Below, in pieces: positions 14,672 to 17,295 of a stretch of 64,000 nt of DNA. Position numbers and translations under genes: made by a program. The notes under the pieces are model-generated. The model saw only the letters and a program-made list of their open reading frames with translations. It searched no databases and was not told the DNA's origin. Position 1 is the first letter of the stretch; every line of letters begins with the position of its first letter. This DNA comes from Hymenobacter nivis. Its GTDB lineage: Bacteria; Bacteroidota; Bacteroidia; Cytophagales; Hymenobacteraceae. The stretch is from contig NZ_RCYZ01000006.1 in assembly GCF_006439025.1 (NCBI RefSeq), positions 1 to 64,000 on the forward strand, read 5' to 3'.

Positions 14672-15112
14672 ATGCGCGTCATCCTTCGTACTGCTGTGGG
14701 CCAGGGCCCTGCCCAGGTAATGGCGGGCTTCACCCGCGAGCTGTTTTTGGCGCTGGCCCCGCCGTTTCCGAAGCTGAAGCTGGTGCGCTACGACGGCAGC
14801 CGCACCGGCGACGTGGTGGAAATTGAGCTGAACACGGGCATCAAAAAGCTGCCCTGGACGTCCCTCATCACCGACGACGGCGTGCGGCCCGACGGCACCC
14901 ACTACTTCGTGGACGAGGGCCAGCGGCTGCCCCCGCCGCTGCGCTACTGGAAGCATCGCCACCTTATCGAGCCGGGGCCCCGGGGCGGCAGCATCATTGT
15001 GGACAACCTGGAGTACCGCACCGCTTTTAGGGCCCTGGACGTGCTGATTTACCCGGCCATGTGGGCGCAGTTTGCCTGGCGCAAGCCCATTTACCGGCGC
15101 TGGTTCCGGTAG
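14672..15112 (+). CDS. SRPBCC-type ligand-binding protein
   Basis: A 146-residue cytoplasmic protein that fits the small SRPBCC (START-like) family common in Cytophagales. The cues are the N-terminal RTAVGQGPAQVMAGFTREL, a central beta-rich part containing GDVVEIELNTG, and a terminal helix LDVLIYPAMWAQFAWRKPIY. Such folds bind hydrophobic ligands; the ligand is unknown. It is divergent from the BioF-like gene (80 bases between starts) and lies 19 bases before the rlmI start codon. A fresh promoter lies between it and rlmI. Confidence 0.65.
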   Translation: MRVILRTAVGQGPAQVMAGFTRELFLALAPPFPKLKLVRYDGSRTGDVVEIELNTGIKKLPWTSLITDDGVRPDGTHYFVDEGQRLPPPLRYWKHRHLIEPGPRGGSIIVDNLEYRTAFRALDVLIYPAMWAQFAWRKPIYRRWFR

Positions 15113-15116
15113 GGCG

Positions 15117-15124
15117 TACCTTTG
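15117..15124 (+). promoter_or_regulatory. -7 element for rlmI
   Basis: TACCTTTG begins 4 bases after the upstream stop codon and ends 7 bases before the rlmI ATG, again predicting a transcript with almost no leader. Confidence 0.6.
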
Positions 15125-15131
15125 CGGGCCT

Positions 15132-16340
15132 ATGAGCTACCCGACTTCGCCCGCCACCCTCGTCCTCAAAAACGGAAAAGACCACTCCTTGCGCCGCCGC
15201 CACCCCTGGGTTTTCTCGGGGGCCATTGCCCGCCTCAAGGGCGAGGCGGGCGAAGGCGACGCCGTGCGCGTGGAAGCTGCCGACGGCGAGCTGCTGGGCG
15301 TGGGCCACTTTTCGGGCGGCGGCTCCATCGCCGTGCGCATGCTCGATTTCGGTGCCGAAGCTGAGTTGCCGACGCCCGATTTCTGGGTGCGGAAGCTGGG
15401 CAATGCTTACCAGTTGCGCCAGCGCCTGGCCCTCACCGGCGCGGCCGATACCAACGTGTTCCGCCTAGTGCACGCCGAGGGCGACGGCCTGCCCGGCCTC
15501 ATCATCGACGTGTACGGCGACGTGGCCGTGGTGCAGGCGCACAGCGTGGGTATGTACCGTGCTCGCCCCGAAATTGCTGATGCCCTGCGCGTTGTGTTCG
15601 GCGATAAGCTGCGCGCCATCTTCGATAAAAGCGCCGAAACCGTGCCCGGCAACGCCGTGCCGGATGCGAAAAACGGCTACCTGTTCGGCGAAAGCACCGG
15701 CACCGAGCACCTCGTGACCGAGAACGGCCACCAGTTTGCCATCGATTGGGAGACGGGCCAAAAAACTGGCTTTTTCATCGACCAGCGCGACAACCGGGCC
15801 CTGCTGGCGCGCTACGCCGCCGGCCGCCGCGTGCTGAACACGTTCTGTTACACGGGTGGCTTCTCGGTGTACGCGCTGGCCGCCGGGGCTGAGGTGGTGC
15901 ACTCCGTCGATTCGAGCAAGAAAGCCATTGCCCTCACCGAGCGCAACGCCGCCTTGGCGCCCCACGCCGACCGACACGCCGCCTACGCCGACGACGTGCT
16001 TGGCTTCCTCAAAAACCACCCCGCCGAGTACGACCTGCTCGTGCTCGACCCGCCCGCTTTCGCCAAGCATATGGGGGCCCGGCACGCCGCCCTCATGGGC
16101 TACAAGCGCCTCAACGCCTCGGGCATTGCGCACCTGGCGCCGGGCGGGTTGCTCTTCACGTTCAGCTGCTCGCAAGTGGTTAGCCCCGAGCTGTTTGAGG
16201 GCGCTGTGCTGGCCGCTGCCATTGAGGCCGGCCGCCCCGCCCGCATCCTGCACCGCCTCACCCAGCCCGCCGACCACCCCGTGAGCCTCTTCCACCCCGA
16301 AGGCGCGTACCTGAAAGGACTGGTGCTGGCCGTAGAATAG
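15132..16340 (+). CDS. rlmI: 23S rRNA m5C1962-type methyltransferase RlmI
   Basis: A 402-residue protein of the RlmI family, which methylates a cytosine of 23S rRNA (C1962 in E. coli numbering). An N-terminal PUA-type RNA-binding domain (KDHSLRRRHPWVFSGAI, about 15-32) leads into a central linker. The class I methyltransferase domain follows, with NTFCYTGGFSVYAL (motif I, about 236-250), an acidic SAM-binding residue in VDSSKKAI, the catalytic-loop signature LDPPAFAKH and FSCSQ. Length agrees with the family (about 396). The start at 15132 follows a -7 element closely; an earlier in-frame ATG at 15072 would overlap the previous gene. Confidence 0.93.
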   Translation: MSYPTSPATLVLKNGKDHSLRRRHPWVFSGAIARLKGEAGEGDAVRVEAADGELLGVGHFSGGGSIAVRMLDFGAEAELPTPDFWVRKLGNAYQLRQRLALTGAADTNVFRLVHAEGDGLPGLIIDVYGDVAVVQAHSVGMYRARPEIADALRVVFGDKLRAIFDKSAETVPGNAVPDAKNGYLFGESTGTEHLVTENGHQFAIDWETGQKTGFFIDQRDNRALLARYAAGRRVLNTFCYTGGFSVYALAAGAEVVHSVDSSKKAIALTERNAALAPHADRHAAYADDVLGFLKNHPAEYDLLVLDPPAFAKHMGARHAALMGYKRLNASGIAHLAPGGLLFTFSCSQVVSPELFEGAVLAAAIEAGRPARILHRLTQPADHPVSLFHPEGAYLKGLVLAVE

Positions 16341-16377
16341 CCGAATGAAACGGAGCGACCCGCGGGCCGCGCAACAA

Positions 16378-16431
16378 AACCCAGGGCCCTCGCTCTTCGC
16401 ACTCAGCGAGAGCAGAGGGCCCTGGTTTTTT
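16378..16431. terminator. Bidirectional terminator rlmI / thioesterase
   Basis: A long perfect-type hairpin, CCAGGGCCCTCGCTCTTCGC against GCGAGAGCAGAGGGCCCTGG (small offset in the middle), is flanked by AAA on the left and TTTTTT on the right. It serves the convergent rlmI and thioesterase genes; the stop codon of the latter overlaps its edge. Confidence 0.85.
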
Positions 16432-16846
16432 ACAGCGCCGCCACCACCGGCCGGATGGGGGTGGGGCGGCGGTTGTCGTCCACGGCGACGAAGGTGAACG
16501 AGCCGGTGACGGCCAGCAGGCGCTCCTCGGAATACATCTGCTCGACGTAGAGCTCGACGCGCACTTGCAGGCTAGTATTGCCCACGCGCACCACGTTGCC
16601 GATGAGCTCGACCAGCGTGCCGCCGGGAATGGGGTGGGTGAAATCGACCCGGTCGGACGAAACGGTGACCATTTTGAGGCGCGAGAAGCGGGTGGCCGTT
16701 ATAAAGGCCACTTCGTCCATCATATGCAGCGTGGCTCCGCCAAAGAGCGTGTCGTAGTGATTGGTGGTGCCGGGGAAAACGGCTTTGAAGATGCGCGTTT
16801 CGGCGCGGGCAATCTGGTCGGCGAGGGCTTGCATGAAGCTGAGCAT
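16430..16846 (-). CDS. Acyl-CoA thioesterase (hotdog fold, YciA-like)
   Basis: A 138-residue hotdog-fold protein that hydrolyses acyl-CoA thioesters. Family marks are the N-terminal FPGTTNHYDTLFGGATLHMM (about residues 22-41), where the Asn and Asp lie in the active-site loop of the BFIT/YciA group, followed by DEVAFITATRFS, and VSSDRVDFTHPI with VRVGNTSLQVRVELY in the second half. The ATG at 16846 (MLSFMQALADQ) is chosen; a longer reading frame to 16990 would add only low-complexity Gly/Pro/Arg. It is unusual that a cobalamin riboswitch lies upstream in the same orientation, although about 170 bases separate the two. Confidence 0.88.
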   Translation of the reverse strand: MLSFMQALADQIARAETRIFKAVFPGTTNHYDTLFGGATLHMMDEVAFITATRFSRLKMVTVSSDRVDFTHPIPGGTLVELIGNVVRVGNTSLQVRVELYVEQMYSEERLLAVTGSFTFVAVDDNRRPTPIRPVVAAL

Positions 16847-17018
16847 GAGGTGGAAAAGCGGCGGGCGCTGGCCCGTTTTCTTGCTTCCTTGCCCAGTGGT
16901 GCGCGTGCCCAGGCGCGGCCGCGCCGGCCCCGGCTGCCGGGGTGCGGAAGCCGGCGTGCCGGCGGTGCCAAACCTGATGCGGGGCCCCAAAACGCGAGGG
17001 AAGCATCAAATGGCGGCC

Positions 17019-17190
17019 GGCAGGTCTCCTGACTTTGTGCCGCCGGCGCCCTTCCTTCTCAGCCGCCCGGGGGCTGGCCAATGGAAAACTAGGGGCCCCG
17101 GCCGGGGTGGCACTTACAGTAGCGCGTCTGTTCGGGAGTTGCACCCGATTCCCTTTTCATTCCGGCCCGAAGGCCCGAAACCGGCCGCTG
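17019..17190 (-). promoter_or_regulatory. Cobalamin (B12) riboswitch
   Basis: Read on the minus strand from 17190, the sequence shows the adenosylcobalamin riboswitch signatures in order: ATGAAAAGGGAATCGGGTGC, GCGCTACTGTAAGTGCC, a variable GC-rich stem, GAGAAGGAAGGGCGCC, and the B12-box end AAGTCAGGAGACCTGCC (17019-17035). The switch would normally lower expression of the gene below it when cobalamin is plentiful, through transcription or translation. The next frame downstream is the acyl-CoA thioesterase at 16846; the DNA between shows no recognisable B12 transport or synthesis gene. The 5' border is approximate. It is divergent from the carotenoid desaturase. Confidence 0.9.
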
Positions 17191-17295
17191 GTTGATTTAG
17201 AAAAATCGAAGCAGCGGTAACCTGCCGCGAAGGTAACCCGCATTTTCAGGCCCGGGGCCCAAACTTTTACCCCCGGGCCCGCGGTTGGCAAGGCA

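Follow-up and report, generated by a model that had tools for sequence, protein, structure and literature searches.

What is a cobalamin riboswitch doing in front of an acyl-CoA thioesterase? In the window, i.e., the whole 64,000-nucleotide stretch of Hymenobacter nivis DNA that was analysed, the first-pass annotation had reported the signatures of a B12 riboswitch on the minus strand, about 170 bases ahead of a YciA-like thioesterase, and had offered two answers: either B12 status controls the thioesterase, or the true target was lost and the switch is stranded. The answer that we have come to favour, and consider reasonably probable, is that a class-I switch induces the thioesterase at B12 shortage and that the enzyme hydrolyses the acyl-CoAs of stalled mutases, freeing CoA. 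The presence of the switch was borne out by an Rfam scan, in which RF00174 matched over its full length (17200-17002, model positions 1-189) and scored 103.8 bits (gathering score 31.5, E 6.8e-25). The leader is made up of the following elements:

17002..17200, minus strand: cobalamin riboswitch aptamer RF00174 (Rfam, 103.8 bits), with loop L5 (GACGCG) at 17123-17128
16975..17008, minus strand: P13 hairpin directly after the aptamer, with outer stem TGATGC/GCATCA and inner stem CCC/GGG
16992-16996, minus strand: L13 loop CGCGT, complementary to L5 ACGCG (17123-17127); putative kissing-loop regulatory helix
16835..16974, minus strand: spacer or expression platform, GC-rich and poorly conserved; a pyrimidine-rich tract precedes the start codon (leader alignment)

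Comparison with relatives suggests that P13 and L13 form the putative kissing element that a functional class-I switch should have. The L5 sequence ACAGACGCGCTACTG is the same in 29/29 Hymenobacter relatives, and the CGCG of L13, to which the invariant L5 is complementary, is likewise invariant in all 29 aligned leaders. The inner stem of P13 shows a compensatory change in this alignment, from U-A to C-G, and the outer stem varies in sequence between clades, yet re-forms in most individual folds; the consensus fold recovers the inner stem only, owing to misalignment of the outer stem from one clade to another. The spacer is a different matter, since its 140 nt are poorly conserved and lack a structural signal, a point that we count against the favoured explanation, and across the leaders the 72 nt that precede the start codon folded into no significant local structure (mean z -0.3). 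A search of the 5.44 Mb genome to which the window belongs found two cobalamin riboswitches, and the second of these (contig C7, 99.9 bits) is followed by an ORF for a periplasmic-binding protein (PF01497), which is the expected kind of target, and then by a gene that we read as a FecCD/BtuC-type permease.

The next gene after the window's switch is indeed a thioesterase, as the first reading had it:

16430..16834, minus strand: acyl-CoA thioesterase of 134 aa (4HBT hotdog, TE6/YciA-like; Pfam, NCBIfam)

Its match to PF03061 (4HBT) has 60.1 bits against a cut-off of 20.6, and its hotdog fold is not in doubt. The best NCBIfam match is YciA (NF007970), yet at 49.8 bits this lies far under the cut-off of 162, and the protein is therefore related to the YciA equivalog by sequence and not classed as YciA itself. 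It shares a single hotdog domain with the YciA/TE6 enzymes (H. influenzae HI0827, E. coli YciA) and differs from them in its low score against the YciA model and in its closest solved relatives, 2gvh and 2eis, neither of which carries an assigned function. We know of no riboswitch control of YciA. The aspartate of the MMDEVAF motif, D40, is invariant in 22/22 aligned thioesterases and, judging by the offset in the profile match, which is gapless, would align by position with the catalytic residue of HI0827, D44 (PMC10560148). Translation probably starts at the ATG at 16834, since relatives align best from this second ATG, the alternative being the ATG at 16846; the distance from aptamer to start is then 167 nt, in agreement with the first estimate. 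A longer ORF with a TTG start (16430-16990) was rejected as the true gene start, and the ORFs of the leader are not conserved. Among the matches to the thioesterase, those in three Hymenobacter drafts (L036:1501-1899, L040:1501-1902 and L057:1501-1887) show in-frame stops in the search table, and it is possible that these copies are pseudogenes or start-region artefacts.

Whether switch and gene belong to one transcript can be judged from the signals at its two ends:

17228..17263, minus strand: predicted Bacteroidota-type promoter TTTG-N24-TTACCTTCG, a pattern match just upstream of the riboswitch
16377..16424, no strand assigned: GC-rich inverted repeat with a T-run after it, CCAGGGCCCTC...GAGGGCCCTGGGTTTT, read from the sequence after the thioesterase stop

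The full two-box promoter pattern, for which 0.89 chance matches are expected in the whole window, was matched in only 2/29 Hymenobacter loci; a -7 box TAnnTTTG (or TACCTTCG) stands just upstream of the aptamer in 28/29 and was found between aptamer and thioesterase in 0/29 spacers. A terminator or a separate promoter between the two would have spoken against the first-pass proposal, and beyond the lack of a -7 box in the 29 leaders, a simple terminator scan called no terminator-like site between switch and thioesterase on the minus strand of the window. The same scan missed the repeat at 16377..16424, which lies between convergent genes and is likely a shared terminator, so that the unit is probably monocistronic. 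The neighbours, on one side a FAD-dependent oxidoreductase read divergently on the plus strand from 17296 (which we take to be phytoene-desaturase-like) and on the other a convergent SAM-dependent methyltransferase (15072-16340), leave the thioesterase as the sole gene of the unit. It is exceedingly improbable, in our judgement, that the switch acts instead on a small unannotated leader product or an antisense RNA and that the thioesterase is transcribed independently: several ORFs do overlap the leader and the spacer is 140 nt long and GC-rich, but neither the spacer sequence nor its ORFs are conserved, the spacers of the 29 loci are free of a -7 box, and conservation is confined to the aptamer, P13 and the thioesterase.

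Strong support for control of the thioesterase by B12, as the first-pass annotation had proposed, comes from gene order in dozens of relatives together with the conserved anatomy of the leader, i.e., from comparative sequence analysis. An orthologue of the thioesterase is present in 43/61 Hymenobacter genomes (76-100% identity), or in 42/60 (76-96% identical) when the window's own genome is set aside, and in 37 of the 43 it is preceded on the same strand, at a distance of 143-203 nt, by a cobalamin riboswitch. In further Hymenobacter genomes the linkage was found in 10/10. The genomes that have no orthologue contain a single riboswitch in 16 of 18 cases, and therefore gene and switch appear to come and go together, and a paralogous thioesterase that served as a control was riboswitch-linked in 0/36. 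Six genomes depart from the direct pairing: the order is riboswitch-metE-thioesterase in L064 and riboswitch-PAS protein-thioesterase in L065, and no riboswitch was found near the thioesterase in the others.

The metE of L064 has a bearing on the second of the early answers, that of a stranded switch. MetE is otherwise rare in the genus (3/61 genomes) and not encoded by the window's genome, and in L066, a Hymenobacter that has neither an intact metE nor a nearby riboswitch, part of the metE catalytic domain (L066:2421-3014), still in open frame, lies upstream of the thioesterase, an apparent intermediate of operon decay. An ancestral riboswitch-metE-thioesterase operon from which metE was lost and in which the thioesterase was kept is probably the parsimonious history. 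As originally put, the stranded switch is refuted, the pair being conserved across the genus; what survives of the idea is the probable loss of metE, a co-target that would have stood between the two. These same loci are what can be said for a stronger version, in which metE was the real target and the thioesterase is merely the next gene and not under functional control. We consider that version very improbable, since an intact aptamer, P13/L13, promoter box and conserved spacing have been kept in 37/43 and 10/10 Hymenobacter genomes, the genomes without the thioesterase are mostly also without a second riboswitch, and in other families the thioesterase is riboswitch-linked without metE.

Those other families widen the picture considerably. 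Across the order, at least 27 of 71 orthologues, from ten families, are preceded by a same-strand riboswitch at no more than 8 kb, where we estimate the chance of such a placement at about 0.2%; the intervening genes are metE in some families and a BtuB-like TonB-dependent receptor in others, with additional genes in a few, and several loci have no gene in between. Among 48 named loci outside Hymenobacter, picked by protein similarity only, a same-strand cobalamin riboswitch precedes the gene in 33, and Rfam confirms 27 of these switches. The orthologue here takes the distal position in operons that begin with the riboswitch and contain metE, for the B12-independent methionine synthase (Pedobacter, Echinicola, Tenacibaculum, Mucilaginibacter and a Chitinophaga MAG), nrdB-nrdA, for the B12-independent ribonucleotide reductase (Sediminibacterium and other genomes), or a BtuB-like TonB receptor (Fulvivirga), and it follows the riboswitch directly in a Pontibacter and in a Flavobacteriales MAG. 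MetE was assigned by TIGR01371 and class-I RNR subunits by TIGR02506, both over cut-off, and the remaining contexts by phmmer against the MetE and RNR proteins so confirmed. In one locus (L194:4824-4924) the element before nrdB-thioesterase is AdoCbl-II (RF01689), which is a separate class of cobalamin riboswitch. Many orthologues elsewhere (e.g., those of families f11 and f15) have no detected linked riboswitch among the matches listed. Placement behind cobalamin riboswitches nonetheless holds in more than one lineage and operon context (Cytophagales, Pedobacter, Tenacibaculum, Chitinophaga, Mucilaginibacter), and that different operons, lineages and switch classes should all lead to one ligand and one thioesterase is difficult to account for unless the gene has a functional tie to cobalamin. 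Such comparisons suggest that Hymenobacter and much of the Bacteroidota make the thioesterase when B12 runs out.

What the enzyme would accomplish then is best approached through the genes with which it travels. The products of metE and nrdAB replace the B12-dependent MetH and NrdJ, and we know of no common B12-independent isozyme for the acyl-CoA mutases. We assume, from the behaviour of known cobalamin riboswitches, that cobalamin switches the thioesterase off: transcription would begin just upstream of the aptamer, the L5-L13 kissing loop would form when cobalamin is bound and lower downstream expression, and the thioesterase would be made when cobalamin is scarce. Acyl-CoA mutases deprived of their cofactor would meanwhile let propionyl-, methylmalonyl- and possibly isobutyryl- or butyryl-CoA pile up, and the thioesterase would hydrolyse these short or branched acyl-CoAs, releasing the CoA; it would be the counterpart for the mutases of what MetE is for MetH and NrdAB for NrdJ. 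Based on this reasoning we infer both its substrate and its role in CoA relief, and the thioesterase probably frees CoA trapped behind a stalled B12-dependent enzyme. The regulatory logic is expected to be that of riboswitch-controlled metE and nrdAB, in whose operons the thioesterase of relatives is distal; the difference is that the thioesterase is no isozyme and, where an isozyme takes over the reaction, it would drain off the blocked substrate. Our opinion is evenly divided on the wider proposition of a Bacteroidota-wide response, in which a riboswitch-induced thioesterase and not an isozyme drains blocked acyl-CoAs, releases CoA and completes the set with MetE and NrdAB.

The distribution of the mutases bears on the CoA-relief role. 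The window's genome encodes MetH and, besides methylmalonyl-CoA mutase, a second mutase that is large and fused, but no MetE. A mutase match was found in 60/61 Hymenobacter genomes, most of which have the methylmalonyl-CoA mutase subunits and a large fused mutase, which we take to be of the IcmF type. In 291 genomes the presence of the thioesterase and that of a mutase are associated (91/104 vs. 121/187, Fisher p 2e-5, uncorrected for shared ancestry), and a mutase is present in 26/27 of the riboswitch-linked genomes listed vs. 34/44 (p 0.04, likewise uncorrected). These counts were read by us from search tables, and the association between thioesterase and mutase may be phylogenetic in origin. 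Moreover, 18 of the 61 Hymenobacter genomes keep mutases without the thioesterase, which is therefore dispensable.

A true member of the B12 regulon could also have a job other than the relief of propionyl- and methylmalonyl-CoA; it may, for example, adjust the pool of fatty-acyl or branched-chain acyl-CoAs, or serve metE, RNR or cobalamin-uptake functions. The closest solved relatives, as noted above, have no assigned function, the gene sits with metE, nrdBA and transporter genes and not with mutase genes, and one Pedobacter operon includes a KAS-III-like enzyme, all of which would fit such a job. We nevertheless think it unlikely, while giving it real weight, since a thioesterase has no evident chemistry in the methionine, deoxynucleotide or cobalamin-uptake pathways, and the acyl-CoA mutases, found in all but one of the 27 riboswitch-linked genomes listed, are the major B12 enzymes without a B12-independent isozyme. 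Experience with YciA itself, a distant relative, bears on CoA relief in both directions. In its favour, the broad-range H. influenzae enzyme is active on a variety of CoA dicarboxylates, methylsuccinyl- and mesaconyl-CoA among them (PMC10560148), and cells engineered with YciA give a higher product yield when cobalt is limiting (PMC9529712). In engineered M. extorquens, on the other hand, YciA did not notably convert CoA esters beyond these two (PMC10560148), and we count this narrow conversion against the CoA-relief explanation.

As a regulatory element, the switch resembles other class-I cobalamin riboswitches (RF00174) in its full aptamer, B12 box, L5-L13 complementarity and predicted upstream promoter, and it differs in its target. 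A large comparative study of cobalamin regulons (PMC3766115), which within the Bacteroidota covers only the Bacteroidaceae, distinguishes four classes of target: synthesis of B12, its transport, the transport of cobalt, and isozymes of B12-dependent enzymes. The open literature, to which our search was confined (the subscription B12-regulon papers of 2003 fell outside its scope), held no report of a thioesterase as a cobalamin-riboswitch target, and apparently this is a known class of riboswitch with an undescribed, widely conserved target. B12 supply is ecologically important in the Bacteroidota, and to our knowledge the ways in which bacteria cope with their acyl-CoA mutases at B12 shortage are poorly described. 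If the CoA-relief role is correct, a riboswitch-controlled thioesterase would be one answer in the Bacteroidota to mutases short of B12, B12-starved cells would be predicted to excrete propionate, methylmalonate or related acids, and a widespread, unnamed group of thioesterases would gain a physiological role.

The company that the thioesterase keeps in these operons includes several other proteins. A small PAS-domain protein recurs between riboswitch and thioesterase in several lineages (L191:5519-5995, L207:5527-5985, L065:2675-3343 and L163:5513-6001); that of L191 has LOV/YtvA-like matches, and in the G046 copy we read an asparagine at the position expected of the photoactive LOV cysteine. 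Cysteine-rich CWC/DUF5522 proteins directly precede the thioesterase in L187 (5573-5923) and similarly in L108, L109, L110, L112 and L125, and in L108 and L109 ORFs of 191 aa run into the thioesterase, with no separate ORF between the CWC/DUF5522 part and the thioesterase. A DUF6580 membrane protein, which looks like a component of a vitamin-type transporter, lies near the thioesterase in L187 (5014-5577) and in L177, where it is followed by what are presumably cobalamin biosynthesis genes (cobT/cobS-like). The KAS-III-like (FabH) gene of Pedobacter (L160:4981-5991) separates metE from the thioesterase in an operon whose riboswitch is about 3.6 kb upstream.
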